The position numbers were made by a program, and so were the translations under genes. The notes under the pieces were generated by a model. It saw only the letters and a program-made list of their open reading frames with translations. It had not been told where the DNA came from and did no database searches. A DNA stretch of 64,000 nucleotides from Halodesulfovibrio sp. MK-HDV (lineage in GTDB: Bacteria; Desulfobacterota; Desulfovibrionia; Desulfovibrionales; Desulfovibrionaceae), in the NCBI RefSeq assembly GCF_009914765.1, contig NZ_WYDS01000018.1, positions 1-64,000 on the forward strand, read 5' to 3'. Below, in pieces: positions 39,056 to 54,814 of this stretch; position 1 is the stretch's first letter; each line of letters begins with the position of its first letter.

Positions 39056-39961
39056 ATGGAAGAATTTATTCAGCAGCTAACAAATGGTTTGGCGGTTGGT
39101 GGCATTTATGCCCTCATCGCACTTGGTTACACCATGGTCTATGGTGTATTAAAATTGATTAACTTTGCACACGGTGACTTGTTCACCATTGGTGCTTTTT
39201 TAGGGCTGACGCTGCTCACATCGTTAGGCCTTACTGATTTTTTCGGACCAATTGCAGGCTTGTTAATTCTGGCAGTCATGGTTGTTATTCTTGTTGGTGT
39301 CGTAGGCTTTTTGCTCGAACGAGTTGCCTACCGCCCGCTTAGAACATCACCGCGTCTTTCAGCAGTCGTAAGTGCTCTTGGTGCGTCCATCTTTTTCCAG
39401 AATGCTATTATGCTTATCTGGGGCGCGCGTCCGCTCGTATATCCGCATGGGTTGTTACCAAACATCACTGTGGATATTTTTGGCGTAGAACTTCCGCTTA
39501 TCCGTATTCTCATGTTTGCGACCTCTGTCATACTCATGTGCGGTTTGTATTATCTCACACATAAGACACGTATTGGTACTGCCATCCGTGCAGCTGCAAT
39601 CGATCAGGGCGCAGCAAAGCTTATGGGTATTGATGTTAACCGCGTTATCAGCCTCGTATTTATGATCGGCCCTGCACTTGGTGGTGCAGCCGGTGTTATG
39701 GTTGGTCTGTACTACGGTCAGATTAACTTTACGATGGGTTGGTTATACGGCCTTAAAGCTTTTACTGCTGCAATTCTTGGTGGCATTGGCAACATTCCGG
39801 GCGCTATGCTCGGCGGCCTGCTACTTGGTGTTGTAGAATCTCTCGGAGCTGCTTACATTTCCATCGCATGGAAAGATGCAATCTCCTTCTTTGTGCTCAT
39901 TCTCATTTTGATCGTCCGCCCGACCGGAATTTTGGGCGAAAGGGTGGCTGATAAGATATGA
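39056..39961 (+). CDS. livH: Branched-chain amino acid ABC permease LivH
   Basis: A 301-aa inner-membrane permease with about eight TM segments. It begins MEEFIQQLTNGLAVGGIYAL and contains the family stretches INFAHGD, RAAAIDQGAAKLMGIDVNR and FTAAILGGIGNIPGAMLGG. ATG 39056 has GGGA upstream; 14 extra in-frame codons belong to the hairpin tail. Its stop overlaps the livM start (ATGA). Confidence 0.96.
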   Translation: MEEFIQQLTNGLAVGGIYALIALGYTMVYGVLKLINFAHGDLFTIGAFLGLTLLTSLGLTDFFGPIAGLLILAVMVVILVGVVGFLLERVAYRPLRTSPRLSAVVSALGASIFFQNAIMLIWGARPLVYPHGLLPNITVDIFGVELPLIRILMFATSVILMCGLYYLTHKTRIGTAIRAAAIDQGAAKLMGIDVNRVISLVFMIGPALGGAAGVMVGLYYGQINFTMGWLYGLKAFTAAILGGIGNIPGAMLGGLLLGVVESLGAAYISIAWKDAISFFVLILILIVRPTGILGERVADKI

Positions 39962-40926
39962 TCATAAAGAAACAAGATATGTTGTACCTTGCAGGGGCTG
40001 TGCTGTTTGCATTTTCTCCGCTGGTACTCAATGCATACTGGACTGATGTTTTGAACAATATCGGCCTGTACGCAATTCTTGCGCTCAGCCTGAATATTAT
40101 TCTTGGTCAGTGTGGTTTGTTCCAGATGGGACATGCAGCATTTTTTGCGGTTGGTGCATACACCTCCGCAATTTTGAATACGATGTTCGATATTCCGTTG
40201 TTATGGACAATGCCGCTTGCTGGCATCCTTGCCGGAATATTCGGTCTTATTGTAGCGCGACCAATTATTCATCTTCGTGGTGACTATCTGCTTATCGTTA
40301 CGATTGGTATCGTCGAAATTGTTCGTATTGCTCTTATCAACGATGTTGGCGGGTTAACCGGTGGTGCTAACGGCATTTTCGGTATTGATCGTCCAATGTT
40401 ATTCGGTTTTAAAATTAAGCGTCCACACCAGTTCTTTTATCTGATCTGGGGATTCTGTGCCGTAACAATTTTCCTCTTCCATAGGTTGGAAAATTCTCGA
40501 TTCGGCAGAGCGCTTAACTATATTAAAGATGATGACGTGGCAGCAGATGGCTCTGGTATTGATATTTCCCGTTACAAGCTCACAGCATTCGTTATTGGTG
40601 CATTCTGGGCTGGTATGGTCGGAACTATCTTTGCCGGTAAAATGAAAATTATTTCTCCTGAATCGTTCTCGTTCTGGGAGTCTGTATTGCTGTTCACCAT
40701 TGTTATTCTCGGTGGTATGGGTTCAATCCGCGGAGTTCTTCTCGGTGCGTTCCTTATTATCGGCCTGCCGGAAGTCTTCCGTGATTTTGCGTCTGCCCGA
40801 ATGCTTATTTTCGGTGCCGCAATGGTCGCAATGATGATTTTCCGCACACAGGGTCTGTTACCTCCTTTACCACGAAAATACGATGTTTCCCGCTTTTTCA
40901 GCAAAGCTGAAGGAGAGCAGCCATGA
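39958..40926 (+). CDS. livM: Branched-chain amino acid ABC permease LivM
   Basis: A 322-aa partner permease. It has [23 protein letters not shown], the cytoplasmic loop [22 protein letters not shown] (coupling to the ATPases) and [16 protein letters not shown] near the end. About nine to ten TM segments. It overlaps livH by 4 bp and livG by 4 bp. Confidence 0.96.
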
Positions 40927-41693
40927 GTCTTGTAGAGCTTAAAAACCTTACCAAAACCTTTGGCGGCCTGCTTGCGGTTAATGACGTTTCCTTCAATGTT
41001 GAGGAAGGTTCAATCGTAGGTCTTATCGGTCCTAACGGTGCTGGTAAAACCACTGTGTTTAACCTGATTACCGGTAACTATGTTCCAGATACCGGTGAAG
41101 CGGTGTTCAATGGTAAAGATGTAGTAGGTATGGAAACCCACCGCATTGTAAACCTTGGCATTGCGCGTACATTCCAGACTATTCGTCTTTTCAAGAGCTT
41201 AAATGCTCTGGAAAACGTACTTTCTGGCTGTCACTGTCGAATGAAATCCGGCATTTTTGCTTCCATGTTCCGTACTCCTTCTCAGCGTGCTGAAGAAAAG
41301 CTTGTGCTTGAAAAAGCAATGGCTGAGTTGGAATTTGTTGGTCTTAAAGACCAGTGGGATATTCAGGCAGATAGCCTTTCTTACGGAAAGCAGCGTTTGC
41401 TGGAAGTTGCCCGCGCGCTCGCAACCGAGCCAAAGTTCATCATTCTTGATGAACCTGCTGGCGGTATGAACGATCAGGAAACTCAAGAGCTTATTGATAT
41501 TATCGGAGCCATTCGTGACCGTGGCATTACCGTGCTTCTTATTGAACACGATATGAGCCTTGTTATGAAAATCTGTGAACACCTTGTTGTTCTTGAATAC
41601 GGTGCAGTTATCGCTGAAGGCGATCCGGAAACTATTAAAAATGATCCCCGGGTTATCGAAGCGTACCTCGGTGCCGACGATGATCTACTGTAA
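40923..41693 (+). CDS. livG: Branched-chain amino acid ABC ATPase LivG
   Basis: A 256-aa ABC ATPase: Walker [15 protein letters not shown] (about 37-50), signature [15 protein letters not shown], Walker [13 protein letters not shown] and switch His in LLIEHDM. The signature LSYGKQR instead of LSGGQ is typical of LivG. Coupled to livM by ATGA; livF follows by 14 bp. Confidence 0.97.
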
Positions 41694-41707
41694 GGGAGAC
41701 CTGCCAT

Positions 41708-42424
41708 ATGCTACTTGAACTTCGTGATCTGCACGTAAACTACGGTAAAGTTGAAGCACTGCACGGTATCAACCTCACAGTTAATGAAGGTGAGATTGTT
41801 ACTATTCTTGGTGCCAACGGGGCAGGAAAATCCACCACGCTCAACTCCATTTGTGGACTTGTGAAAGCGACCAAAGGTGAGATCTTTCTCGACGGTAAGC
41901 CTATTCATTCTGTTCCGGCACATAATATTGTTAAGATGGGCATTTCCCAATCTCCGGAAGGGCGTCGTGTATTCTCTACATTAACAGTAGAGGAGAACAT
42001 GGATTTAGGTGCCTTTACGTTGAAGGATAACGCAAAAATTGAGCGTAACAGAGAATGGATCTACGATCTGTTTCCTCGTCTGCTCGAACGCCGCACCCAG
42101 CTTGCAGGAACACTGTCCGGTGGTGAGCAGCAGATGCTCGCAATTGGTCGTGCGCTGATGTCCAGCCCTCGCTTGCTGTTGTTGGATGAACCGTCTCTCG
42201 GCCTTGCTCCGATACTCGTGAAGTCCATTTTTGAAACTATTCGTAAGATCAACAAGCACGGCTTAACCGTGATTCTTGTTGAGCAGAATGCGCGTGCTGC
42301 ACTCAAGCTTGCTGATCGCGGGTACGTAATGGAAGTAGGGAACATCGTTCTTGCGGACGATGCCAACGTACTGCTTTCTAATCCGGATATTCAGGCCGCT
42401 TACCTCGGTGGTAAGGGTTTGTAG
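41708..42424 (+). CDS. livF: Branched-chain amino acid ABC ATPase LivF
   Basis: A 238-aa ABC ATPase: Walker A GANGAGKSTTLNSI, GISQSPEGRRVFSTLTVEENM, signature LSGGEQQMLAIGRAL, Walker B LLLLDEPSLGLAP and LVEQNA. It is the last gene of the livJHMGF order, followed by a strong terminator. Confidence 0.97.
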   Translation: MLLELRDLHVNYGKVEALHGINLTVNEGEIVTILGANGAGKSTTLNSICGLVKATKGEIFLDGKPIHSVPAHNIVKMGISQSPEGRRVFSTLTVEENMDLGAFTLKDNAKIERNREWIYDLFPRLLERRTQLAGTLSGGEQQMLAIGRALMSSPRLLLLDEPSLGLAPILVKSIFETIRKINKHGLTVILVEQNARAALKLADRGYVMEVGNIVLADDANVLLSNPDIQAAYLGGKGL

Positions 42425-42480
42425 TATACACTTTGTTGAGTGCTGCTTACCCGCGGCGCAATCCTATAGCTTTAATAGTA

Positions 42481-42518
42481 AAAAGGCTGTCCTTCATACG
42501 AAGGACAGCCTTTTTTTA
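42481..42518 (+). terminator. Intrinsic terminator after livF
   Basis: AAAAGGCTGTCCTTC / GAAGGACAGCCTTTT, 15-bp perfect stem, ATAC loop and T-run. Confidence 0.95.
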
Positions 42519-42577
42519 TTTACAGAATGGGTGGAAGAGTATTGCTGCGAGGCTACGCATCGCAGGTAACTCTACTA

Positions 42578-42802
42578 CTAAAAGTTTCCACCGTAATGTG
42601 GAGGTGGTCCATCATCCACGCCGCCATCATCAAGGGCTGGGCTAAGTTGACGGATTCGCATGATCACTGCTTCCATCTTCTTTTCCATTTCATCAAGCTG
42701 GAACTGTTGGCTGGTTATGGCTTCATTGAGTTCAGTGATGGTTTTGTCCTGAAAATACAGCTGCTCTTCTAATTGAGTGATGCGTTCTTTAGTTTCTTTC
42801 AT
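42578..42802 (-). CDS. slyX: SlyX-like protein
   Basis: A 74-aa coiled-coil protein (RITQLEEQLYFQDKTITELN, MEKKMEAVIMRIR) ending in the family signature PPPHYGGNF. SlyX is conserved in proteobacteria but its function is unknown. AAGGAG precedes the ATG, which overlaps the stop of the EVE-domain gene (ATGA). Confidence 0.85.
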   Translation of the reverse strand: MKETKERITQLEEQLYFQDKTITELNEAITSQQFQLDEMEKKMEAVIMRIRQLSPALDDGGVDDGPPPHYGGNF

Positions 42803-43269
42803 GCCTGCTCCTTTGCAAGGTTGCAGATGATATCAAATTCATTTTTATCCACGGGCATTACAGAAAGACGGGAGCCTTTACGTAATAATTCCATGCTTTC
42901 CAGTCCTGGGACCTGACGTAATTCTTTTAACGAGAGAGCTCGCGGAAGTTTTTCTATAAACTTAACATCTACCATGTACCAGCGGGGATTATCGACGGTT
43001 GACTTGGGATCAAAATGATCGTCTTCCGGATTCCATGCTGTGTGGTCAGGATAACTTTCTCGGACAACCTCGCATACGCCTACGATGGAAGGATTGGTGA
43101 CGCTGTGATAAAATAGTACCTTATCGCCAAGCTTCATTCCGTCGCGCATGAAATTGCGTGCCTGATAATTTCGTACGCCATCCCATGATGTTATCTGATT
43201 CGGCTCATTTTCAAGGGTGTCGATGGAGTAGCAGCCGGGTTCAGATTTAACGAGCCAGTAGTTAGCCAT
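42799..43269 (-). CDS. EVE-domain protein
   Basis: A 156-aa PUA-like EVE domain: YWLVKSEPGCYSIDTL, WDGVRNYQARNFMRDGMKLGD and LFYHSVTNPSIVGVCEVV, closely like human THYN1. EVE domains are thought to read modified bases in DNA or RNA, sometimes in defence systems; here it is a stand-alone housekeeping-type gene. ATG 43269 with CGGAG; 38 upstream in-frame codons are not part of the family. Confidence 0.92.
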   Translation of the reverse strand: MANYWLVKSEPGCYSIDTLENEPNQITSWDGVRNYQARNFMRDGMKLGDKVLFYHSVTNPSIVGVCEVVRESYPDHTAWNPEDDHFDPKSTVDNPRWYMVDVKFIEKLPRALSLKELRQVPGLESMELLRKGSRLSVMPVDKNEFDIICNLAKEQA

Positions 43270-43683
43270 AGTAAACTCCGTTTCTATTATGAAGACTGGT
43301 AGCAGTCCAAGTATCAAATCTATTTCTATATCAACAGAATATCGCAGTCTGTTTTTGAATTCAAGTCGTAGTGTGTCTGACATGCAGTACTGACAACTGG
43401 AGTGATTGGCAGTGTGCTAGAGCGTAGCATAGTTTGGAATATGCCGTAACGGATTTCTTTTACGAAACCATTATGCTGATGCCTGAATCAAAGAAGGTGT
43501 TAAATACTATGTTATTATAGTATGTTATTTTGTAGTGTCTATGTGGGTATGTATTGAAGGGAGATAACCGGTTGTGTTGCTTCGTAACATTTCGTGAAAG
43601 ATGGGAATAGTCTTTCGGGATTGAATGAAGTTTGGTAGAGTAACATAGAAAAATTGCAACAAAAATCGGTATTGGAGGAGCAG
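43270..43683. other. Divergent intergenic region EVE/DUF3124
   Basis: About 410 bp. It is AT-rich around 43500-43545 with a doubled TATGTTATT; promoters for both genes are expected. No further feature seen. Confidence 0.4.
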
Positions 43684-44154
43684 ATGATAACTCGACGTGT
43701 GTCGTGGATTATGGGGTTGTTTCTTTTTGCGACGGTGGCCTTTTCTCCAGCATTAAGTGCTGCCCGAACAATGCAAAATAAGCAAACATTGTATGTGCCG
43801 GCGTATTCCTACATTTATCATGGGAATAAAGAAGCAAAGATTAACCTTACGACTACGCTTAGTATTCGAAATACAAGCCGTGCAGAAGGTATCCGTATTC
43901 TCAGTGTAGAGTTTTATGACACAGCTGGAAAGTTGTTGCGTAGTTATCTGGACGAGCCTGTGCTTATGACGCCGCTTGAGTCTTTGCGTTATGTTGTAAA
44001 GCTTGATGACGACGAAGGTGGGTCCGGCGCTAACTTCATCGTAAAATGGGAAGCGGACAAAGCAGTTGATGTGCCGATTATCGAAAGCATTATGCTTGGT
44101 ACCGGTTCTTCATACGGCTTTGCATTTCTTACTCAGGGTGTTCCGATAGAATAG
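43684..44154 (+). CDS. DUF3124 exported protein
   Basis: A 156-aa protein with a signal peptide (about 1-27, ending LSAA) and a beta-rich domain: TLYVPAYSYIYHGNKEAKIN, TTLSIRNTS, ILSVEFYDTAGKLLRSYL and ANFIVKWEA. This is the DUF3124 family, of unknown function. ATG 43684 follows GGAGGAG. Its stop codon abuts the stop of the convergent DAC gene with no base between. Confidence 0.82.
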   Translation: MITRRVSWIMGLFLFATVAFSPALSAARTMQNKQTLYVPAYSYIYHGNKEAKINLTTTLSIRNTSRAEGIRILSVEFYDTAGKLLRSYLDEPVLMTPLESLRYVVKLDDDEGGSGANFIVKWEADKAVDVPIIESIMLGTGSSYGFAFLTQGVPIE

Positions 44155-45570
44155 TTATTCTTCGAGCCAGTCGGTAAGGCGTGGCGGTGTTGATATATAG
44201 CTTATCGGTTTCCATCGGCATTGGGCAGTCAGTTCAATGCCGTGCTGGATAACGGATACAGGTCTGTCAGATGACACAACAATAGTGATGATATTTTTGT
44301 GCATGGCAGTAAAACGAACTGCGGAGTTAAATCGTGCTCCACGCGCTCTGTTTTCTCCGGGAACTGTCCTTCCGTCCAGCAGGCATGCGAAGCCGAGAAG
44401 AGTAGACGATTTGCTGATGTGCAATGCGCCATCAACCTTTGCAAGGGAACATGCAATGTCGATGTTTTCCGGCATGCTCAAATCCAATGGAGTTTGGAGT
44501 GTCTGGCCTGCAATGTTTCGCGGAATTGTATTGAGGTCTAATACGAGAGTACAGCCGTGCTTACGTTCCCGTGCTTGTATAACAACGCGTGTAATATAAT
44601 GAAAAATATTATGCTGTTGCTTCGGTGTTAAGTTGGACTCAAGCAGCGCTTCTTCCAGCTGAACAAGGTTCGGCCTGCGGTTTGTTGCGAGAAAATTACC
44701 TGACGCAAAACTGCAAATGAGTTCATCATCAAGTTTGACCATCCCATGGTTACCTTCAAAGGTCGCAAGGATAGATCCGGGAGGAAGGTCACCGGATGCA
44801 ACCCCAGCAAGAGTACACCCATCTGAAATAAGAAACCGTTCTGTGTTTTCCACTGCTTGCAGAGTCTTTCTGCAATGGCGGAGATTTACGAGCAACGGTT
44901 GTTCCATGCGAGGAAATGATGCTTGGAAATGAACATGCTGCAAAAGGCGCGGTTCTACAAAAGCAATGTTACCTCGCGGCCATTCCCCTTCTTCCCGCGT
45001 ATTTGAAATACCCAAAATAGCATTAAGTGTAGGATAAATACGTAAATATGTATCCATTCCTAAAGCTTCGCTACGTTTGTCGATAATATAATCACGGATG
45101 GCGTGCTGGGCGTATCCTTGCAGTACATAGCTGGAAGTATCGTTGCGTAGCCCTGCGCCTTGACCAAAGTCCGCACATAATTGTGTTGCTGCATATTCCA
45201 GCCAGCGCAAGGTTGGGCCTTTGGAACAAATGTCAGGGTGTTCTTCTGTAAACCACATTTGGAAAGGAAGAGTGGTGCAGGAACCACCATAAGCGATTAG
45301 ACCGGAGAGCTGTGGATCGTCTGATGGATTGAATTCAGGCAAAAGGTTGCAAGAAGTCGTTTCCTGAAAAGTAGTATAAAGATCTTTAAGGCGTGGCTGG
45401 TGACCATCTAGCAAGTTCTGCGGATCAAGAATGTAAAAAGGCCCCTCAGCTTCAAGGCATATGAGCAATGCTACTCGGCTAGGACCGGCAAAGTGGGACA
45501 AGCCGTCGCTTAATCCATCAAGAATATTGTAAATACTCCTTCTCCAATAGGAAGTATCCATTGTAGCCAC
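44155..45570 (-). CDS. Protein with C-terminal diadenylate cyclase (DisA_N-like) domain, diverged motif
   Basis: A 471-aa soluble protein. The C-terminal part (about 370-448) matches the DAC/DisA_N fold: VDGALHISKS (DGA at 380-382, ATP-binding), GFACLLDGR, then GARFNSAVRF (411-420) where active enzymes have GTRHRAA, and ITIVVSSDRPVSVIQHG. The Arg of the RHR motif remains but His and second Arg are Phe and Asn. The N-terminal 280 residues look like a sensor module I cannot name. It could make c-di-AMP, sense it or be inactive. GTG start with GAGGAGG. Divergent from a FliM-FliG-like gene. Confidence 0.72.
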   Translation of the reverse strand: MATMDTSYWRRSIYNILDGLSDGLSHFAGPSRVALLICLEAEGPFYILDPQNLLDGHQPRLKDLYTTFQETTSCNLLPEFNPSDDPQLSGLIAYGGSCTTLPFQMWFTEEHPDICSKGPTLRWLEYAATQLCADFGQGAGLRNDTSSYVLQGYAQHAIRDYIIDKRSEALGMDTYLRIYPTLNAILGISNTREEGEWPRGNIAFVEPRLLQHVHFQASFPRMEQPLLVNLRHCRKTLQAVENTERFLISDGCTLAGVASGDLPPGSILATFEGNHGMVKLDDELICSFASGNFLATNRRPNLVQLEEALLESNLTPKQQHNIFHYITRVVIQARERKHGCTLVLDLNTIPRNIAGQTLQTPLDLSMPENIDIACSLAKVDGALHISKSSTLLGFACLLDGRTVPGENRARGARFNSAVRFTAMHKNIITIVVSSDRPVSVIQHGIELTAQCRWKPISYISTPPRLTDWLEE

Positions 45571-45591
45571 CGTATCCTCCTCGCAGCAGAG

Positions 45592-45615
45592 TATGACGTT
45601 AGTTTTAACGTCATA
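45592..45615. promoter_or_regulatory. Perfect inverted repeat upstream of the DAC gene
   Basis: TATGACGTTA - GTTT - TAACGTCATA, 10-bp arms, 21 bp upstream of the GTG start. A likely operator, or a hairpin in the mRNA leader. Confidence 0.55.
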
Positions 45616-45831
45616 ACAGGAAATGAAACATCATGAATTGTGCCTTGGTCAGTGTATAACTGCATAGTGCTATTGGAATCGCTTTTATAAATTGATGCGC
45701 ACGCAACTATTTATGATAAATGAAAATTAACGTCCCACTCTATGCTAAATATAACACTTGGTAGGGTATCTGCATGTTCGAAAAGGGGCAAGGGGTACAG
45801 TGCTTTTTTTGTAGTGAATGCTCCGATTACG

Positions 45832-45918
45832 TCAGTATATATAATCGGAAGGGTAGTGCAAATTTTTCTAACTGTAGTATAGATATACTTGGGCGTAGCG
45901 ATAGTATCAGTATATATA
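45832..45918. repeat. Duplicated TCAGTATATATA motif
   Basis: TCAGTATATATA occurs at 45832-45843 and again at 45907-45918, 75 bp apart, ahead of the FliM-FliG-like gene. It may be a pair of regulator sites or -10-type promoter elements. Confidence 0.4.
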
Positions 45919-45963
45919 GATAGCTGTTAGGCTGACAGAGAACAGTATACTCAGGAAATGCGT

Positions 45964-47994
45964 ATGACTAAAAAACGGGTAAGAGGAAAAGTCCTCCCTT
46001 TTCATTCGAAGAAAAATGACGCTAACTCCGTAAAGGGTTCAGTTGGTGCTAAGCTGGGCGAGTCATCTGCCGATGTCTCTGCTGATGTGCCAACAGATGC
46101 GCCTGAAGTACTCGCTGATACGTTGGTTAAAGCGTCAGGTTCTTCTGTGAAACGAAAACAGAAGACAAATAGCGAGACAGATAAGGTTGAAATTGAGGTT
46201 ACGATAGATCTTGATCCGTGGTCTGATGAGGCATGGCAAGCATCACTGACCGGTGTCGAAAATGATCCAGTGACCGAGCTGTTCGGATCAGACAAGTCGG
46301 CGTCACCCAATAATGAAGTGACTATCGAAGAGATGCAGTGGCTTTTGAAAAGTCCTTCGGATGACGCTGAAAATGACAGTTCGTCAGGCAGTGTTTCCGG
46401 TTCAAATTTTGTTCTGGGATTGCCGCCCAAACAACTTTCGGATGCTCAAAAGCATGGCACGTTGACTCATTTACTTGAGTATCGATACCAAAAATCAATG
46501 CAGTTCCCCGTGCTCGACAAAGTACTAAATAAGTTTGCAGCCGTGGCATCAAAGCGGTTGTGTAAAATGACAAATCAGTCCTGTCATGTAAAAGCTGTTC
46601 GTTCCGCACGTGCCCCGTTTGATGTATGGCTGCGGATGGATCATCCTGTAGCAACAACTTTTTCTATGTTTCCTCTGGATGGTGTGAGTGTTTTCGGAAT
46701 GGAGCGTGAAGTTGCGGTCGGGCTTGCTAACGCTATTTTTTCCGCAGGGGAACAGGAACCGGTTCCTCAGTTACTTCGCAGGTTGGCAGAGCTGAAGAAG
46801 AGCAAAAAAAATATTCCTGTTTTTCCCATCGCAAGCAATGTGGTTCGCCACGTGCTTCATTTGCTATTGCTTGATTTGGAATGGGCTTTGGCTCCATTTT
46901 ATGAAGTTGAATCCAAGCACAGCAAAGCTGATGAACCAGCTCTCTACAGTAAACATTTTTGGCTGGACGAACCTTGCATCGTTTGTGAGCTTTCTGTCAG
47001 CATAGATATGAACACCGCTGAAGGGCGTGATCCCGCAAGCAACAGCGGTGCGATGATGATTGTGTTCCCTGAAAAGATGCTTGAGGAGATTCTCCCGATT
47101 CTTACAGGGGAACAGTCTATTCTTGTTCCAGAATTTACAGAGATTGATACTTCAGCAGTAGAGCGGCTTTTACGGTTGGATAATGAAGCCCTACGGGCTG
47201 AATTAGTAAGTCAGCATCCATTGTCCGCAGCCGTTATACTTTCGCAGTTGTCCGAAGATAGAAGACTGACGCTTGTTGAAAAGATGAGCAAAGATAAACA
47301 GGAAGCCATAGATCGAAGGGTCGGTCATAGAGCAGGGATTGAAACGGTTCTGTCTGAATCGCAGCAATTTGTTGCTTCAGTACTTGCGCTTGGCGAAAGC
47401 CATGCCGCGCAGGTGCTCAGCAGTTTTTCTCCGGAAGCAGCTGCGGGTTTCTTACGTGAGGCTGGAAAATTGCCGTCGTTGTATCCTGAGCAGGTAAATG
47501 CATTATTGAAAAGCCGGAATAGTTCGATTGTCAGCGTCGGAGCCTTAGTCGTGGACAGTGCACTTGTTCGGCGCCTTATGATTCGATCAATTGCTGCGAA
47601 AGATATGGCGCAGGTTGTCGCGTTATGCCGGAACAGCAGAGTGCATATGCCGTTTGCATTGATTCTGTCTGTCCCCGTAGAAGACGTAGCATTGATACTC
47701 CGAAGTGAACCTGTTTCAATTCAAGGTGCAGTCATTTTACTGCTTTTGGAAACAGACAGGGATTACGCGGCAAGGCTTTTTTCTGTATTCTCTCAGGATG
47801 AGCAGCAACAAATTGTTCAACAACTGTTGCATGGTAAGCGCATCGAATCAGAAATTGTAACGCTTTTGGAAAACTATCTTATTGCACAGCTTTCAAATCG
47901 CACTGAAAAAGAAGCATTAAGCATGCCCGATCAAGAACGGTGGGCAGTTTCTGGCACTGTTGAGTGGTTGTTAAGTAATTTTTCATCTGAATAG
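45964..47994 (+). CDS. FliM-like/FliG-like chimeric protein
   Basis: A 676-aa protein (numbering here counts two extra residues from the ATG at 45958). Residues 1-160 are acidic and low-complexity, with VTIEEMQWLLKS (121-132) recalling the FliM CheY-binding LSxxEIDALL. Residues 170-385 resemble FliM: DHPVATTFSMFPLDGVSVFG, LLLLDLEWALAPFYEVE and GAMMIVFPEKMLEEILPIL. Residues 400-630 resemble FliG: LVSQHPLSAAVILSQLS (EHPQ-like), then further armadillo-like helices. No EHPQR charges or flagellar genes nearby. I chose ATG 45964 because AGGA is 7 bp upstream. Function unknown; a switch-like scaffold is inferred. Confidence 0.68.
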   Translation: MTKKRVRGKVLPFHSKKNDANSVKGSVGAKLGESSADVSADVPTDAPEVLADTLVKASGSSVKRKQKTNSETDKVEIEVTIDLDPWSDEAWQASLTGVENDPVTELFGSDKSASPNNEVTIEEMQWLLKSPSDDAENDSSSGSVSGSNFVLGLPPKQLSDAQKHGTLTHLLEYRYQKSMQFPVLDKVLNKFAAVASKRLCKMTNQSCHVKAVRSARAPFDVWLRMDHPVATTFSMFPLDGVSVFGMEREVAVGLANAIFSAGEQEPVPQLLRRLAELKKSKKNIPVFPIASNVVRHVLHLLLLDLEWALAPFYEVESKHSKADEPALYSKHFWLDEPCIVCELSVSIDMNTAEGRDPASNSGAMMIVFPEKMLEEILPILTGEQSILVPEFTEIDTSAVERLLRLDNEALRAELVSQHPLSAAVILSQLSEDRRLTLVEKMSKDKQEAIDRRVGHRAGIETVLSESQQFVASVLALGESHAAQVLSSFSPEAAAGFLREAGKLPSLYPEQVNALLKSRNSSIVSVGALVVDSALVRRLMIRSIAAKDMAQVVALCRNSRVHMPFALILSVPVEDVALILRSEPVSIQGAVILLLLETDRDYAARLFSVFSQDEQQQIVQQLLHGKRIESEIVTLLENYLIAQLSNRTEKEALSMPDQERWAVSGTVEWLLSNFSSE

Positions 47995-48050
47995 GACGAA
48001 AGTACGCGCGTATGCATTGAAAAAAGTATGTCGCGTTTATATGTATAAAA

Positions 48051-48100
48051 AAAGCTCAGGTCGGCTTGCAGAATTTCTGCTTGTCGACCTGAGCTTTTAT
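48051..48100. terminator. Bidirectional terminator
   Basis: AAAGCTCAGGTCG / CGACCTGAGCTTT outer stem with an inner GCAGA/TCTGC hairpin; A-run on the left, T-rich right side. Between convergent genes. Confidence 0.85.
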
Positions 48101-48157
48101 CTTTTTATGAGGGGTGATTTTACACCCTTGCACATCGCTGGAAACGTATCTTCGTAA

Positions 48158-50191
48158 CTAGCGGTTGTTCACAGAGAATGGAGATGCTTTTTTCGGACCA
48201 GATTTGCCGGTCGGAACTGGTTGCTGCTCACGTTTAGGCTGGCTTTTGCGTTCGGAACGTTTGTCGGAGGCATGGTTACTGGAACCACGTTTCGAGTCTG
48301 GCTTACCATTTGGCTTACCATTTGACTTGCCAGCGTATGCTCCGCGTTTTCCCTGTGGTGCCTTGCTCTCTTTACGCCCGACACTTGGAATCAAAATATG
48401 GTGCTGACGAAGACGTTCAGCATCGGTGTACGCGACAAAAATATCTTCACCGTTTTCATCAATGCGAGCAAAATAAGATGCTGTTGCTACAGTACCCGGT
48501 GTAGGGATGAAACACTGCACTTGCTGTGGCTGCCAGCCTCTGGAGCGAAGCCAGTTGCCAAGTTCGCGCATGTGGTTGTCTGTACAGCCCGGGAATGCAC
48601 TCATCAGGTACGGAACAACGTATTGCTCTTTTCCTGCCTGTTCAGAATATTTCTTGAATGCGCCGAGGAAATGTTCAAAGGAAGCAACACCCGGTTTTCG
48701 CATACGATTCAGCACAGCATCACAAATATGTTCCGGAGCAACTTTAAGCTGACCGCCGGTGAATTCCATGGTGTATGCACGAAGGGCTGTTTCATCCTTT
48801 TGTGCGAGATCGAAGCGAACGCCACTGGCAACGCGTACATTTTTGATTCCGGGAACCTTTTGAATGTCACGCAGCAGTGTAATGCCTTTTGTCTGATTCA
48901 CAGCAAACTGCGGGCACACTTTCGGGTGCATACAGCTTTTACGCTTACATTTTTCAGGGTCAGCCTTACAGCTTGCCTGCCACATGTTGGCAGAAGGGCC
49001 GCCTACATCGCTGATAGAGCCATTGAAACGCTTGTTGCGAGTGAGGTTTTCCACTTCCTGAATGATGGATTCTTTACTGCGTGATGTGATTCTTCTGCCC
49101 TGATGCAATGCCAGAGAACAGAATGAGCAGCCGCCACCACAGCCTCGGTGAGTTGTGATGCTCGTTGTCATCATGTCAACGCACGGAATTTTTTCAGTGT
49201 AGGATGGATGCTGTGCTTTTGCGTACGGCAGACCGTAAAGTTCGTCCATTTCATCTTCAGACAACGGCAGAGCTGGCGGAGCAAGAAGAACTGCGCGCTT
49301 GCCGACTGGCTGAATAGCCCAGCCGTCAGCTTCCTGAACATGACGTTCAAGGCTAAGCGTTGCAGTCATAAGTTTTTTGTTGTCCGCATCAATTTCTTCA
49401 TGGGATGGAAGCTCTACGATGTTAGCCTGTGACGGAATTTCGTCATGGGTTCCCATGTAGGCAATGCCACGTACATCTTGAGCAATGTATGAAAATGGTG
49501 TGCCGGATGTTTCGCCGTACTGGTCGAGAACATGAGCTATGTGGAGCATGGCGTATTCGCCCATGCCATAGACAACACAGTCCGCTTTACTGTCGAGCAG
49601 GATGGAGCGGCGAAGTTTGTCTGTCCAGAAATCATAGTGAGTGATGCGTCGTAATGATGCTTCAATACCACCTATGACAACCGGAATGTTAGGAAACGCA
49701 CTACGAACGAGGTTTGAGTACACAATGGTGGCACGGTTCGGACGAGATCCTGCTTTGCCTCCAGGGGTGTACGCATCATCGTGACGTTTTTTTCTAAACG
49801 CCGTGTAGTGCGCCAGCATGGAATCAATGGCACCTGCGCTTACAGAAGCGAAGAGACGCGGACGACCCATTACAAGCATGTCGTCCGGTTTATCCCAGCG
49901 GGGCTGAGCAATAATGCCTACGCGATATCCATGTGCTACAAGCCAGCGTCCCAAAAGAGAGGCGGCAAAGCTTGGATGATCGACGTAAGAGTCGCCAGTA
50001 ACGAAGAGTATATCGAGCTCATCCCAGCCGAGTTCATCCATTTCCTTTTTGGACATAGGAAGAAATGCAGGCTGTGTGAGTGGTGCACGCCCGAGTACTG
50101 GACGCTCTGATTTTTGATTCCATGTTTTTGTCATGGGCGGAATATAAGGATTGCGTAGTGGTCTGGCAATAGACAATGCCTTTGCAGGCAA
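48158..50191 (-). CDS. YgiQ-family radical SAM protein
   Basis: A 677-aa protein of the YgiQ family (UPF0313). The N-terminal cobalamin-binding-like domain has DILFVTGDSYVDHPSFAASL and VVIGGIEASLRRITHYDFW. The radical-SAM motif is HRGCGGGCSFCSLALHQGR. Further parts include ISDVGGPSANMW, CKRKSCMHPKVCP (extra Cys cluster) and a Lys/Gly-rich C-terminal tail. The reaction is unknown. TTG 50191 has GAGGA at good spacing; ATG 50134 is an alternative without a clear site. Confidence 0.88.
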   Translation of the reverse strand: MPAKALSIARPLRNPYIPPMTKTWNQKSERPVLGRAPLTQPAFLPMSKKEMDELGWDELDILFVTGDSYVDHPSFAASLLGRWLVAHGYRVGIIAQPRWDKPDDMLVMGRPRLFASVSAGAIDSMLAHYTAFRKKRHDDAYTPGGKAGSRPNRATIVYSNLVRSAFPNIPVVIGGIEASLRRITHYDFWTDKLRRSILLDSKADCVVYGMGEYAMLHIAHVLDQYGETSGTPFSYIAQDVRGIAYMGTHDEIPSQANIVELPSHEEIDADNKKLMTATLSLERHVQEADGWAIQPVGKRAVLLAPPALPLSEDEMDELYGLPYAKAQHPSYTEKIPCVDMMTTSITTHRGCGGGCSFCSLALHQGRRITSRSKESIIQEVENLTRNKRFNGSISDVGGPSANMWQASCKADPEKCKRKSCMHPKVCPQFAVNQTKGITLLRDIQKVPGIKNVRVASGVRFDLAQKDETALRAYTMEFTGGQLKVAPEHICDAVLNRMRKPGVASFEHFLGAFKKYSEQAGKEQYVVPYLMSAFPGCTDNHMRELGNWLRSRGWQPQQVQCFIPTPGTVATASYFARIDENGEDIFVAYTDAERLRQHHILIPSVGRKESKAPQGKRGAYAGKSNGKPNGKPDSKRGSSNHASDKRSERKSQPKREQQPVPTGKSGPKKASPFSVNNR

Positions 50192-50228
50192 ATTAATCCT
50201 CAGGGTGCTAATCCCAAGGATTTATCCA

Positions 50229-50873
50229 TTACATGTCTAAGAGTAGGCTGGCTAATGAAGCGGTACCGAAAACGATGATAATCGTACCTGAGACTTTGTT
50301 AATGAGTCTGCTGTGCTGCTTTACGTATGTGCGCATAGCGCTTGCAAAGAAGGAGAGACCACACCACCAGATAGCAGAGCCGAGGAATACACCGAGAACC
50401 AGTGAAGCAGCGCCGGGGGCACCTGCATCACTATCAATGCCGAAGGTGGCAAAGATAACTGTAAACGCAATGATCGTACCGGGGTTCATAGCTGTAAGAA
50501 CAAAAGTGCTGAGCCAAGCAGTAAGAAGGCTTGGCTTGTTTTTTTCTTCTTTTACATCACTTGCTTCAGAAACAAAGGCTGGACGTTGGCGTAGCATGTG
50601 GATGCCGATAGCGAGAAAGAGAAGTCCACCAACAAACCTGATGACTGTGCTGGACTCAGTAATCATATTTGTAATGGCAACAAGGCCGAATGCAGCAACA
50701 GCTCCGTAAAAAAGGTCTGCGGAAGCAGCGCCGAGTCCGGAGATTACGCCCACAAGTTTGCCGTATTTAAGTGTTCTGTGAATACATAGAACTCCGACAG
50801 GTCCGACAGGGGCAGCGATAGTTAGTCCGATTAAAAGACCTTTGAGGAAAAAGTAGAAAAGGGCAAGGCTCAT
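50229..50873 (-). CDS. LysE/RhtB-family amino acid exporter
   Basis: A 214-aa membrane protein with about six TM segments. It starts MSLALFYFFLKGLLIGLTIAAP with the family motif PVGPVGVLCIHRTLKYG, and also has TAMNPGTIIAFTVIFA and GSAIWWCGLSFFAS. LysE-type exporters remove amino acids or related metabolites; the substrate is unknown. It lies 38 bp upstream of the YgiQ gene on the same strand. Confidence 0.88.
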   Translation of the reverse strand: MSLALFYFFLKGLLIGLTIAAPVGPVGVLCIHRTLKYGKLVGVISGLGAASADLFYGAVAAFGLVAITNMITESSTVIRFVGGLLFLAIGIHMLRQRPAFVSEASDVKEEKNKPSLLTAWLSTFVLTAMNPGTIIAFTVIFATFGIDSDAGAPGAASLVLGVFLGSAIWWCGLSFFASAMRTYVKQHSRLINKVSGTIIIVFGTASLASLLLDM

Positions 50874-50993
50874 TGTAGGTGATAATCCTGTGAAGTTATG
50901 ATTATTGAGAAAAGAACAATGCTCACACAATGATCATATCGTAAAAGAGGTTTAATGGAAGCTACATATTTGTTTATAGCGAACGGAAGACAT

Positions 50994-51030
50994 AAAAAAA
51001 GTCGACCCAAAGGTCGACTTTTTTTTTTGC
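50994..51030 (-). terminator. Intrinsic terminator after the EF-hand gene
   Basis: AAGTCGACC / GGTCGACTT stem with a CAAA loop and T-run on both strands. Confidence 0.88.
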
Positions 51031-51049
51031 TGTAATGCTCTAAGACTGA

Positions 51050-51382
51050 TTATTTAGTAGGAGGAGCAATGAGTTCAGGAGCGCCGGAGCCCATTTTTTC
51101 TTTTCCGCCCATCATGCCGCCACCCATCATACCGCCGCCTTTTTTCTCGCCGGTGTTATGGCCTGCCATAAAGCCGTGCCATTCATCATGAGAGATTCCG
51201 CCGGATTTATCTTTATCGATAGTCTGGAACGCGAGTTCTTTCATGGAAGGGTAGGTTGCTGAAAATTCTTCCCAGCTAACACTTTCGTCACTGTTTGTGT
51301 CCATTTTGCCAAACTTGGCGTCAGCAGACACAGCGGTTGCAAAAATGCAGATGAAAGCAAGGGCAAATAGAATTTTTTTCAT
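51050..51382 (-). CDS. Exported EF-hand protein
   Basis: A 110-aa protein with a signal peptide (about 1-20, ending VSA) and two EF-hand loops, DTNSDESVSWEEF and DKDKSGGISHDEW. A Gly/Met-rich tail (GGGMMGGGMMGGKEKMG) follows. It probably binds calcium in the periplasm; the Met-rich tail could bind copper or another soft metal. ATG 51382 with AAGGAG; the in-frame extension upstream lacks a site. Confidence 0.85.
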   Translation of the reverse strand: MKKILFALAFICIFATAVSADAKFGKMDTNSDESVSWEEFSATYPSMKELAFQTIDKDKSGGISHDEWHGFMAGHNTGEKKGGGMMGGGMMGGKEKMGSGAPELIAPPTK

Positions 51383-51707
51383 AATATCTCCTTGTGCAGC
51401 AGGCTGCGTGTCGCAACACTGTGCAAGTTTATGCACGGGCACAGAATATAGTACGGAAATGTGAGTACTATCTCTGCGTTATGTTTACTATAGTAAGCAG
51501 GAGTATTGGAAATTCGTCATCCTGCAAATTAAACTTGGGTAGAATACGCAGTAATGAGAACTGCGTCTACCGTGTATAAAAACTATACACCAAAAGTTAT
51601 AATCTGTTTTTATTTATAAATACAGTGAGTTGTGTCAGGTGGGATACGTTGGAGATATGTATGAGAAATAAAAAAAGCCTCTTTCTTGCGAAAGAGGCTA
51701 TAAATTC
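51383..51707. other. Intergenic region EF-hand gene / tRNA-Asn
   Basis: About 325 bp holding the EF-hand promoter region and, at its right end, the tRNA terminator (51670-51698). Nothing else seen. Confidence 0.4.
51670..51698 (-). terminator. Terminator of tRNA-Asn copy 1
   Basis: GCCTCTTT / AAAGAGGC stem with a 6-nt loop and T-run on the minus strand, 10 bp past the tRNA CCA end. Confidence 0.9.
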
Positions 51708-51783
51708 TGGCTCCTCGAGTAGGACTTGAACCTACAACCTAGTGATTAACAGTCACCCGCTCTGCCAATTGAGCCATCGAGGA
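51708..51783 (-). tRNA. tRNA-Asn(GTT), copy 1
   Basis: A 76-nt cloverleaf with encoded CCA. Acceptor arms TCCTCGA / TCGAGGA, D-loop GGCTCAATTGGCAGAGC, anticodon loop CTGTTAA (anticodon GTT), and T-arm GTAGGTTCAAGTCCTAC. Identical to copy 2 at 52949-53024. Confidence 0.97.
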
Positions 51784-51917
51784 ATATGTGTGCTTCGGTT
51801 TCCCTTAGCGCGAAAATGTGTCTACGGATTTGCTACGCACTCGTCAACCAAAAAATACAATAAAAAAGAAAAAAAAAGAAAATATACCTGATCTCATCGG
51901 GGCTTCTTGTTGAAGTA

Positions 51918-52616
51918 CTACCTTAATTGTGGTGGAGAGGTTTTGTTAGCAGTCGTTGAGGTGATGTTGTCGGTACTTGTTTTTGAGGTTTCACTATACG
52001 GAGACCACATCACGTAAGATTCGCCTTTTTCATTTGTGAGAATATCAATGAAGATTCTTTCCCCGTTATCCAGTGTGCATGAGAGGTTTCCATCAGAAAA
52101 GTCTTTAAAACCTGAAAGCTTTACACAGGTTGCACCGAAGTAGGGAGCAGGAGTGCCAGGTTCTTGGAGTAGTTCTGTCGCTATGCTTGGAATCTGTTCT
52201 TTGATTATTTTATAGTCTGTAGTCAATAGGGTAAGGCTAATCGTCATCGCCGCAATTTGTATAACTATAGTCATTGTAGCGAGCCAAAACGGTGTTTTGC
52301 TCTTTTTAAGTATGTTGCAGCGCTTCCATATATAAGGAAGGCCAAGAATGATCCATCCCCAGTGAGGTGGAGTGATTTCGCGGTGCTTGAGCGCTTGGCG
52401 ATCAACAATGAGAAAAGACATTCCAATTGCAGCGATGGTAGTGTCAGGGAAGCTATCTAGTAGTGTGCTGAATAAGCCGATGACGGTGATAACAATCGGG
52501 TAGGTCACGTAGGCCCATATGTAACAATCACCACTGGCTATGGCTTGAGCTTTTAATCGTTCTTTTTTTTGTTGCTTCTTGTCCAATACAGGTGCCAAAG
52601 GGGGAGCTAAGGACAT
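51918..52616 (-). CDS. Hypothetical membrane protein between tRNA-Asn copies
   Basis: A 232-aa protein. The N-terminal 30 residues are charged (KKQQKKERLKAQ). Three to four TM segments lie in about 40-150 (YPIVITVIGLFSTLLD; WGWIILGLPYIW; WLATMTIVIQIAAMTISLTL). The C-terminal soluble domain has two Cys (ATCVKL, LSCTLDNG) and a Thr/Ser-rich end. No family recognised. ATG 52616 with AGGAG. The gene is enclosed by two near-identical tRNA-Asn/terminator units. Confidence 0.68.
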   Translation of the reverse strand: MSLAPPLAPVLDKKQQKKERLKAQAIASGDCYIWAYVTYPIVITVIGLFSTLLDSFPDTTIAAIGMSFLIVDRQALKHREITPPHWGWIILGLPYIWKRCNILKKSKTPFWLATMTIVIQIAAMTISLTLLTTDYKIIKEQIPSIATELLQEPGTPAPYFGATCVKLSGFKDFSDGNLSCTLDNGERIFIDILTNEKGESYVMWSPYSETSKTSTDNITSTTANKTSPPQLR

Positions 52617-52948
52617 GTGAGTCTCCTGACTATCTTGAAAATGAATAGTATGAGTCAAATTTCTGTGGGGAATAGGTATGGGGATAAAGAATAGCGAAAC
52701 CGATAACGCCAGTTGGTATTTACGTCAACAGTAACTTTTACAAGAAGTTAAAATGACTATAATAGATTACGCCCATTATGCATGTGCTAAGTTGCGTGGG
52801 GTGGGTAGATTCTGACATGTCTTTAGTTTGAGTGGTCTGGCCGGAGCTTCTAGGAGAAGTTTGTTTAAGTGAGGTACGTATTGTTCTAGTGCCAAATATT
52901 TTTTGGGCACAAAAAAAGCCTCTTTCTTGCGAAAGAGGCTATGAATTC
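52617..52948. other. Intergenic region membrane gene / tRNA-Asn copy 2
   Basis: About 330 bp with the promoter region of the membrane-protein gene and the copy-2 tRNA terminator at its right end. No small gene seen. Confidence 0.4.
52911..52939 (-). terminator. Terminator of tRNA-Asn copy 2
   Basis: Same hairpin as at 51670-51698 (GCCTCTTT / AAAGAGGC), offset by 1,241 bp. Confidence 0.9.
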
Positions 52949-53024
52949 TGGCTCCTCGAGTAGGACTTGAACCTACAACCTAGTGATTAACAGTCACCCG
53001 CTCTGCCAATTGAGCCATCGAGGA
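52949..53024 (-). tRNA. tRNA-Asn(GTT), copy 2
   Basis: Identical to copy 1 over all 76 nt, including CCA, with anticodon GTT. Its flanking terminator and 5' flank are also near-identical, so the whole unit of about 120 bp is duplicated. Confidence 0.97.
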
Positions 53025-53230
53025 ATGTGTGCTTGAGGTGTTTCCCTCAGTGCGAAAAAGTGTTTAGAGAAAACCTCAGATACCGTCAAGCCTTTTTTAT
53101 GTTTCTGTAAAAAAAAATTGGGAAAAACAATTTTATGCTCAGAGATGAGAGGGTTCCTTGACGATTGCTAGTAATTGGAATAACCCTTCCCAATTCAGCA
53201 GTGATCGAATTCATTATACGGAGTGATCCC

Positions 53231-54814
53231 GTGAGCGAACAGGAACAGTCAAAACGTAAAAAGATAAAACTTCCCACTAAATCCAGCCAGGCTGATTACT
53301 TCATGCCTATGCTGGAAAGCTTCGTTGACCGTGACGAGTTAAACGAAGTGGTGAAGAATAGAGTGGCAAAGTCCTGCGACTTATTGGATGCAGGCATTCC
53401 TTTATACCCAAACGGGTTTTCAAAGGACCACGATTTTTCTCAAATTCGTGCAGAATATGAAGGACTTGATTCCGAAGAATTAGAATCCCTTACTAAGGAA
53501 TTCTTCTGCGCAGGCCGTATTGTCGGTCTTCGTTCTTTTGGTAAAGTTACCTTTTTCCACGTTCTTGATAAAAGCGGTAAAATGCAGTGTTATGCTGCCC
53601 GCGATACTCTTGGTACTGAAGCGTACCAGAAGTTTAAGAAGTTTGACATCGGCGATATCGTTGGTGTTGTGGGTACATTGTTCCGCACTAAAACAGGTGA
53701 ACTGACTATAGACTGTAAGAGCGTTGAGCTTCTTACGAAGTCTATCCGTCCGCTCCCAGAAAAATATCATGGTCTTAAAGACGTTGAAATTCGATACCGT
53801 CAGCGCTACGTTGACCTTATCGTAACGCCTAAGACCCGCGAAATTTTCCGCAAACGTACTGCTATTGTACGTGAGTTCCGTAGATTTATGGAAGACAGAG
53901 GCTTCATGGAAGTTGAAACTCCTATGATGCATCCAATTCCTGGTGGCGCGACTGCTCGTCCGTTTGTTACCCACCATAACGCACAAGACCATGAGATGTT
54001 CATGCGTATTGCGCCGGAACTTTACTTGAAACGTCTTCTCGTCGGTGGTTTCGAAAAAGTTTTTGAAATTAACCGTAACTTCCGTAACGAAGGTGTTTCA
54101 ACTCAGCATAACCCAGAATTTACCATGTGTGAGTTCTACTGGGCGTATGCAACTTTTAAAGATCTGATGGATCTTACAGAAGAGCTTTTCGGACACATTG
54201 CTAAGAAAGTATGCGGTTCTACCGTTATTACTTACCAGGGACAGGAAATTGACCTGACTCCGGGTACTTGGCAGCGTATCGGCTTCCTCGAATCTTTAGA
54301 GGTTGTTGGTGGTCACACCAGCGAACTTTACGACGATTACGATAAGCTTGCTGCGCATCTGAAAAGCCGTGGGGAGAAAGTACATGAAGGTGAGAAGCTT
54401 GCTAAGCTTCAGGCCAAACTGTTCGACCTTGATGTGGAACAGGATTTGATTCAGCCTACTTTCATTTACAATTACCCTACAGACCTCTCCCCGCTTTCTC
54501 GTAAAAACGAAGAAGACCCTCGTTTTACTGACCGTTATGAATTGTTCATGACTGGCCGTGAGCTCAGCAACGCATTCTCTGAACTTAACGATCCTGTTGA
54601 TCAGCGTTTGCGTTTCCTTGATCAGGTTGCTGAAAAAGAAGCGGGTGATGATGAAGCACATTACATGGACGAAGATTACCTTCGTGCTCTTGAATACGGC
54701 ATGCCTCCGGCAGCTGGTCAGGGCATCGGTATTGACCGTCTTGTAATGCTTTTGACTGACTCACCATCAATTCGTGAAGTCATTCTCTTCCCACTCCTTA
54801 AACCGGAGAGTTAG
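53231..54814 (+). CDS. lysS: Lysyl-tRNA synthetase (class II)
   Basis: A 527-aa class II synthetase. The N-terminal OB fold (about 85-190, CAGRIVGLRSFGKVTFFHVLD) binds the anticodon. The catalytic core has motif 1 FMEVETPMMHPIPGGATARPF, motif 2 FRNEGVSTQHNPEFTMCEFY and motif 3 GIGIDRLVMLLT. GTG 53231 has CGGAG; upstream in-frame codons lie in the leader. lolC/E starts 9 bp after its stop. (Motif 1 is the region around residues 220-240.). Confidence 0.97.
   Translation: MSEQEQSKRKKIKLPTKSSQADYFMPMLESFVDRDELNEVVKNRVAKSCDLLDAGIPLYPNGFSKDHDFSQIRAEYEGLDSEELESLTKEFFCAGRIVGLRSFGKVTFFHVLDKSGKMQCYAARDTLGTEAYQKFKKFDIGDIVGVVGTLFRTKTGELTIDCKSVELLTKSIRPLPEKYHGLKDVEIRYRQRYVDLIVTPKTREIFRKRTAIVREFRRFMEDRGFMEVETPMMHPIPGGATARPFVTHHNAQDHEMFMRIAPELYLKRLLVGGFEKVFEINRNFRNEGVSTQHNPEFTMCEFYWAYATFKDLMDLTEELFGHIAKKVCGSTVITYQGQEIDLTPGTWQRIGFLESLEVVGGHTSELYDDYDKLAAHLKSRGEKVHEGEKLAKLQAKLFDLDVEQDLIQPTFIYNYPTDLSPLSRKNEEDPRFTDRYELFMTGRELSNAFSELNDPVDQRLRFLDQVAEKEAGDDEAHYMDEDYLRALEYGMPPAAGQGIGIDRLVMLLTDSPSIREVILFPLLKPES

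Follow-up and report, generated by a model that had tools for sequence, protein, structure and literature searches.

Locus and neighbouring genes

The window, a stretch of 64,000 nucleotides from Halodesulfovibrio sp. MK-HDV, contains an open reading frame whose 676-aa product joins FliM-like and FliG-like parts in one chain, hereafter called the chimera (Table 1). The ORF list and its translation place the frame where the initial annotation had located it, and all five peptides quoted there occur in the product (HPVATTFSMFPLDG at residues 227-240, LLLLDLEWALAPFYEVE at 300-316, GAMMIVFPEKMLEEI at 362-376, LVSQHPLSAAVILSQLS at 414-430 and VTIEEMQWLLKS at 119-130). The alternative start is an in-frame ATG two codons upstream. 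The opposite strand contains many stops when read in one frame, and ORFs of 142 and 111 aa are found on it.

Table 1. Positions of the chimera gene, its parts and two neighbouring genes in the window
Feature	Coordinates	Strand	Basis or remark
DACND-DACNH-DAC protein, probable dinucleotide cyclase, divergent neighbour	44155..45570	-	Pfam/NCBIfam
FliM-FliG chimera, whole gene	45964..47994	+	676 aa; alternative start 45958
N-terminal basic run, then KVLPF	45964..46005	+	sequence comparison
Short motif DPWSDEAWQASLTGV	46213..46257	+	conserved within an otherwise variable region
VTIEEMQWLLKS	46318..46353	+	conserved in six close homologues
FliM middle-domain homologue	46492..47133	+	residues 177-390; profile, sequence and model matches
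FliG middle-domain copy A	47140..47343	+	residues 393-460; HP of EHPQ(R/T) invariant in 12/12
FliG N-terminal-domain homologue	47350..47643	+	residues 463-560; best-conserved part among close homologues
FliG middle-domain copy B	47644..47913	+	residues 561-650; EHPQ motif degenerate
YgiQ-family radical SAM gene	48158..50191	-	Pfam/NCBIfam, locus comparison

The gene had been described as lying outside any flagellar locus, and no flagellar family was found among the 11 neighbouring ORFs scanned with Pfam (39958-54814). Ten of them matched non-flagellar families (BPD_transp_2, two ABC_tran, EVE, DUF3124, DAC, radical SAM/YgiQ, LysE, EF-hand and class II tRNA synthetase) and one, at 51918-52658, gave no match. 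The order EVE, (DUF3124), DAC, chimera, ygiQ recurs in the loci of nine relatives, and no flagellar gene was recognised beside the chimera in the 15 loci read, the family search covering the neighbours in the window. The DUF3124 gene (43654-44154, forward strand) is convergent with the DAC gene in six close members of the genus and was not found at the same place in the four divergent members.

The divergent neighbour had been taken for a protein of the nucleotide-signalling type, in agreement with its DACND, DACNH and DAC domains in Pfam. By eye, its DGA motif and RGARFNSA stretch are kept, and the protein evolves slowly within the genus. Its NCBIfam match to an anti-phage family was far below threshold (43 bits against a cut-off of 630), and a PADLOC search at E 0.01 matched neither the chimera nor the DAC or DUF3124 protein. 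The intergenic stretch between the DAC gene and the chimera (about 45757-45957, forward strand) is unusually conserved in six species, with 40-column means up to 0.86, and includes a TATCTGCATGTTGGAAAAGGGGCAAGG-like block and the block GTATAGATATAC. A search of positions 45500-46050 against Rfam returned nothing (E up to 1), and consensus folding of the conserved block gave -3.4 against -3.0 +/- 2.2 for column shuffles, indicating no structure. The sigma-70 and terminator scans stayed at chance level.

Domain composition of the chimera

The two halves of the protein were compared by hhalign with canonical proteins of the same family, using 12 chimeras (of 16 genomes), 13 FliM and 17 FliG sequences; four genomes are absent from the 12-row alignments, G097 and G140 because of an uncertain start codon, G129 for its split frames and G162 because of a contig end. 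The FliM half matched FliM at 96.4% (E 1.2e-9), colinear over FliM 57-238, and FliG at 0.1%, as expected from the earlier placing of a FliM middle domain at residues 170-385. Conversely, the FliG half, where FliG-like helices had been proposed for residues 400-630, matched FliG at 98.9% (E 3.2e-17) and FliM at 0.5%. Because each half matches its own counterpart and not the other, the resemblance goes beyond chance. The profile of the whole chimera core, searched against PDB sequences, likewise found FliG (best 1e-6) and FliM (1.5e-3).

The FliM half belongs to the FliM middle domain (FliM_M) by hhalign, NCBIfam, Pfam and PDB sequence searches. The NCBIfam FliM model TIGR01397 matches the window chimera at residues 180-383 (E 2.9e-5) with 23.4 bits, short of the equivalog cut-off of 219.6 bits. 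At E up to 1, TIGR01397 matches 10 and the Pfam FliM family PF02154 seven of the 12 homologues, the window member being included below cut-off in both cases. Among PDB sequences, the profile of the half found the FliM entry 7dm9 (E 2.6e-4) over positions 4-204 of 214. No Pfam row for FliM_C (SpoA/FliN-like) was obtained in the window chimera at E up to 10 with the HMMER filters on, and the GGXG motif is found in none of the 12 FliM halves, being replaced by SAGE-, SGGE-, DRGPE- or GVDPR-like sequences. The CheC phosphatase pattern is [DS]xxxExxN. It is absent from the first 230 residues of the FliM half in 11 of the 12 chimeras, occurs once in the remaining one (P0005, at 321) and is found in none of the 13 canonical FliM sequences.

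Within the FliG half, residues 456-645 are colinear with FliG 9-196 in the hhalign comparison, which corresponds to FliG_N followed by FliG_M (copy B). Residues 397-460 match FliG 116-179, a second FliG_M (copy A), at 45.3% within the half and at 81.9% when cut out. In Pfam, both FliG_M (PF14841; 2.2e-10, best at 575-648) and FliG_N (PF14842; 5.1e-8, best at 473-553) are above their gathering scores in the window chimera, and both match all 12 homologues at E up to 0.1. The protein thus contains a FliG_N domain and a FliG_M domain with an EHPQR-type motif; in copy A, HP is followed by Q in two rows of a second genus (g50, see below) and the full EHPQR occurs in 0/12, and copy B has lost the EHPQ motif. 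No FliG_C was found by Pfam after copy B in the window protein, the one member whose tail past copy B was scanned; a sub-threshold FliG_C match (E 0.088) falls on copy A. FliG_C matches two of the 12 chimera cores (best 7.3e-5) and, at copy A alone, five of the 12 (best 0.0027). The score against the FliG equivalog TIGR00207, 15.2 bits, does not reach the cut-off of 226.7 bits.

As profile comparison, single-member scans and PDB-sequence searches agree, the domain order read from them is FliM_M - FliG_M - FliG_N - FliG_M in one chain, with the FliG modules newly ordered. The initial reading of a FliM-FliG chimera was therefore right and is sharpened by this order; the switch-like scaffold suggested with it is a possibility.

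AlphaFold2 was run with three sequences, and the models were poor (mean pLDDT 44.6 for residues 161-676 and 53.7 for the FliM half alone), so their matches serve as supporting evidence only. With the long model, FliG or FliM chains occupied Foldseek ranks 1-14 (best E 6.3e-4), or ranks 1-22 when CheC and FliY, of the FliM-type fold, are counted in, with a single row under E 0.001. With the FliM half alone, no row fell under 0.001, the best being FliY (0.025) and CheC (0.034) with FliM behind. VIA-align placed copy B (561-650) on FliG 106-193 (Z 12.2, rmsd 2.0, 87 aligned) and copy A (391-456) on FliG 97-164 (Z 8.1, rmsd 2.9, 66 aligned), and for such helical parts a Z below about 13 may reflect just a common arrangement. 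The same holds below 8 for the FliM half, whose residues 177-380 aligned with H. pylori FliM (Z 7.7, rmsd 5.5, 133 aligned) and which alone gave FliM, FliY and CheC-type chains at ranks 1-19 (Z 7.7 to 4.8; unrelated chains from 3.5). FliG_N could not be recognised in the model, where the FliF:FliG_N entry 5tdy aligned onto copy B instead. The models therefore support the fold class of the FliM half; its identity as FliM rather than CheC, and the FliG_N assignment, rest on sequence.

The N-terminal region had been called long and acidic, and residues 21-160 do contain more D/E (26) than K/R (11), which makes the region mildly acidic. The K-[VI]-[LI]-x-[FL] sequence following the basic run is kept in 12/12 aligned homologues, and an extra g50 copy (L095) has KVLPV in place of KVLPF. 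Three of the four divergent genus members have WESA[LF]SG as a counterpart of DPWSDEAWQASLTGV. A CheY-binding-like character had been attributed to VTIEEMQWLLKS. The best ungapped match to the N-terminal motif of own FliM (LSQxEIDALL) was scored against 500 shuffles of the N-terminal region. For the window protein 323 shuffles did as well or better; across the 12 homologues without P0003, 11 in all, the count ran from 70 to 500 of 500. The CheY-binding motif was thus indistinguishable from chance and was rejected. A FliN-like EEWAAALA motif was rejected as well, 255 and 201 of 500 shuffles being as good for the window protein and the lowest count of any row being 58/500 (P0007). The tail is variable and probably disordered.

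Distribution, conservation and origin

The chimera occurs, as an open frame and at the same place, in all ten genomes of the window's genus, which probably include Halodesulfovibrio sp. N3 and H. spirochaetisodalis JC271. Apart from the window protein itself, five of these chimeras share 65-78% identity with it and four share 32-33%. A ten-row profile searched over 149 genomes of the family matched in 45, in 30 of them in the FliG part alone and in FliG-sized frames, and pointed to one further genus, g50. Two family genomes with single-sequence matches (E 4e-4 and 9.7e-4) were set aside, their frames of 167 and 351 aa not being chimeras by size. A second profile, built on the junction from the end of FliM_M to FliG_M copy A, detected the chimera in six of the eight g50 genomes, in four over the whole profile, in one in split form (G129) and in one shortened (G162); the assemblies of the two genomes without it consist of about 820 and 590 contigs.

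When 297 genomes of the order were searched, junction matches with E below 1e-11 were confined to these two genera (10 and 6 genomes). Of the 88 genomes matched, the remaining 72 reached no better than 1.3e-5, and every one of their matches starts at profile position 61 or later, which leaves the junction itself uncovered. In the phylum set of 395 genomes, the junction profile gave 310.7 bits for the window genome against 35.9 for the runner-up; a search of a plasmid collection gave no match. The search for the full-length architecture elsewhere, recommended at the outset, thus found it in the window's genus and g50 and nowhere else in the order and phylum sets.

Of five comparisons with the window chimera, three had a finite dS and gave dN/dS values of 0.067-0.084, and two had none; since dS is near saturation, these ratios are rough. 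Judged from these substitution rates, selection on the chimera is purifying. FliG_N is the best-conserved part (91-93% identity in the three closest homologues); residues 79-130 show 77-85% in the same three, and the first 78 residues 38-44%. The two branches of the genus share 60-62% identity in the DAC protein and 28-32% in the chimera, and homologues reach 935 aa, 259 aa more than the window protein. The chimera is maintained, yet changes faster than the neighbouring genes. We conclude that the chimera family is real, narrow within the genomes searched and under selection.

A check for normal fliM and fliG genes, also proposed by the initial annotation, found both in the window genome, full-length, over the family cut-offs and on other contigs (338.7 and 309 bits, respectively). 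The genome also has a fliN-type ORF, named by eye (L003 1468-2028, reverse strand), with two tandem N-terminal EQWAAAL/EEWAAAL motifs. In one family genome (G063:C62:128198-130340), two neighbouring full-length fliM genes are both over cut-off. FliM was over cut-off in 15/15 chimera-bearing genomes scanned, the sixteenth (G003) lying outside the sample, and in 127 of the 149 family genomes. Because flagella are near-universal in the family, the co-occurrence of FliM and chimera is weak evidence.

In a FliM tree of 13 rows from nine genera (one row from the window's genus, g1, and four from g50), g1 and g50 cluster with g20 and g46 (support 1.00, inner 0.70), and no chimera was found in the scanned genomes of g20 and g46. 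Of the ten window genes compared, ygiQ is the only one adjoining the chimera in both genera: it does so in four of the five g50 loci read, where there is no DAC gene, and the fifth locus, that of the split chimera, gave no ygiQ match in crude gene calls. The FliM clade of these four genera together with the shared ygiQ adjacency suggests one origin, with vertical descent and later loss, a history that fits the tree without being proved by it. Duplication and fusion of C-ring parts is the best explanation of how the chimera arose.

Possible role and known C-ring systems

FliM_C is the FliN-binding and FliG_C the stator-contacting module. Since the chimera is without both, it should neither make torque nor hold FliN. 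It would retain the parts that link the subunits of the C-ring to one another and to the MS-ring. Its FliG_N is predicted to bind either the tail of FliF or a FliG_N next to it, and FliM_M paired with FliG_M copy A would reproduce, inside a single molecule, the contact that FliM_M and FliG_M form in the C-ring. As these joining parts are kept and the torque and FliN modules absent, the chimera may act at the flagellar base as a minority adaptor or cap, tuning C-ring assembly, flagellar number or switching, with the variable N-terminal tail as its regulated part.

We therefore tentatively favour, at slightly less than an even chance, a motor accessory of C-ring origin that docks at the base of the flagellum and there limits or adjusts how the C-ring is assembled or switches. 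The specificity of each half for its own counterpart, the FliM and FliG chains among the top structural matches, the constant position in the genus, the low dN/dS and the conservation of FliG_N all point in this direction, as does the FliM gene of every chimera-bearing genome scanned, and duplicated C-ring proteins with divided labour have a precedent in the available part of a Campylobacter jejuni report (PMC6946799). Against it stand the lack of a recognised flagellar gene beside the chimera, the eroded interface motifs (GGXG in 0/12, EHPQ of copy B lost), an evolution faster than that of the neighbours, the poor structural models without FliG_N and the near-universal flagella of the family, which weaken the co-occurrence. 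That the fusion is a minority subunit of the C-ring itself, or forms a separate non-torque ring at the MS-ring, is rather unlikely; if true, these bacteria would possess an inbuilt control over switch assembly or flagellar number, something that other motors do not have.

The chief rival, which is a real possibility, is a scaffold repurposed outside the flagellum, in which C-ring folds would have been exapted for a cytoplasmic or polar platform, such as one serving cell division or polarity. The non-flagellar locus, the erosion of the FliM and FliG interface motifs, the longer homologues with their fast-changing N-terminus and the absence of FliM_C, and of FliG_C after copy B, from the window protein would all fit such a scaffold. 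It accounts less well for the fact that the best-conserved part is FliG_N, the FliF binder in the motor, and that HP of the EHPQR motif is kept in copy A of all 12 homologues.

The initial annotation had considered a tie to nucleotide signalling, and a switch responding to a (di)nucleotide made by the DAC protein, which the chimera would sense or be controlled by, agrees with the divergent pair adjoining in 10/10 genomes of the window's genus and with the intergenic stretch conserved in six close members. However, DACND is found in none of the eight g50 genomes, six of which have the chimera, and only nine of the 61 family genomes (of 149) with DACND have it. Moreover, in one genome of genus g8 (L099) the DAC gene directly adjoins ygiQ without a chimera, and Pfam found no nucleotide-binding domain in the window protein. 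Because the second genus keeps the chimera without DAC, the link is unsupported and such a switch improbable; given also the DAC-ygiQ arrangement of L099, the pairing seems to be a matter of gene position within one genus and not a general partnership.

In g50 genome G129, the chimera lies in two overlapping frames (L098 8730-11428, reverse strand), which reflects a true frameshift or an error in sequencing. This split and the fast-changing N-terminus could indicate a decaying by-product of duplication and fusion with no present role, which is very improbable in view of the open frame throughout the window's genus, the four of eight g50 genomes matching over the whole junction profile, the dN/dS, low wherever computable, and the kept motifs. 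Finally, reading the helical half as a repeat of MgtE_N type or generic ARM type instead of FliG is hardly credible. For copy A of the window member alone, DUF2336 (0.0023) and Gemin6 (0.012) precede FliG_M (0.015) and MgtE_N (0.024), every one of them below cut-off; among the 12 homologues, MgtE_N is found at copy A in 10 (best 9e-4, E up to 1), and MgtE rows tie with FliG there in VIA-align. Against this, FliG_M matches copy A of the 12 homologues more often and more strongly than any other family (12/12, best 8.2e-8, E up to 1), residues 456-645 are colinear with FliG, and FliG_M and FliG_N are above their gathering scores.

As an accessory to the C-ring, the chimera would be a case of a core motor switch remodelled by fusion within genera that keep the original. 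A conserved natural chain of FliM and FliG parts, with two FliG_M copies flanking FliG_N and no torque or FliN module, offers a way into the polymerisation and counting of C-ring subunits. Among the open-access PubMed Central matches listed, no title or abstract start describes FliM and FliG fused in nature or an accessory protein of the C-ring.

In the portions available of two reviews (PMC6700473, PMC7355467), FliM and FliG are separate proteins whose FliM_M:FliG_M contact carries the switching signal; the first of them has FliG_M EHPQR and FliM_M GGXG making the FliG-FliM contact and FliG_N binding the FliF tail (PMC6700473). Like FliM (TIGR01397, PF02154), the chimera has the middle domain, colinear over FliM 57-238; unlike FliM, it has no FliM_C match, no significant CheY-binding N-terminus and no GGXG, scores far below the NCBIfam cut-off and is fused to FliG modules. 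With FliG (TIGR00207; PF14841, PF14842, PF01706) it shares FliG_N followed by FliG_M, colinear with FliG 9-196, and the HP of EHPQR in its extra FliG_M copy, but this copy stands ahead of FliG_N, the window protein is without FliG_C past copy B and the FliG equivalog cut-off is far from reached. The C-ring proteins of Campylobacter, which are gene-duplicated, have roles in assembly, flagellar number and division in the excerpt available (PMC6946799); those of C. jejuni resemble the chimera in being duplicated C-ring parts, but that excerpt compares FliM, FliN and FliY and mentions no FliM-FliG fusion. FliF-FliG gene fusions are known as laboratory mutants of E. coli and Salmonella from the accessible text of PMC7355467 and PMC6700473. 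The chimera is like them in that neighbouring motor parts are covalently joined, but here the parts are those of FliM and FliG, and the normal copies are kept.
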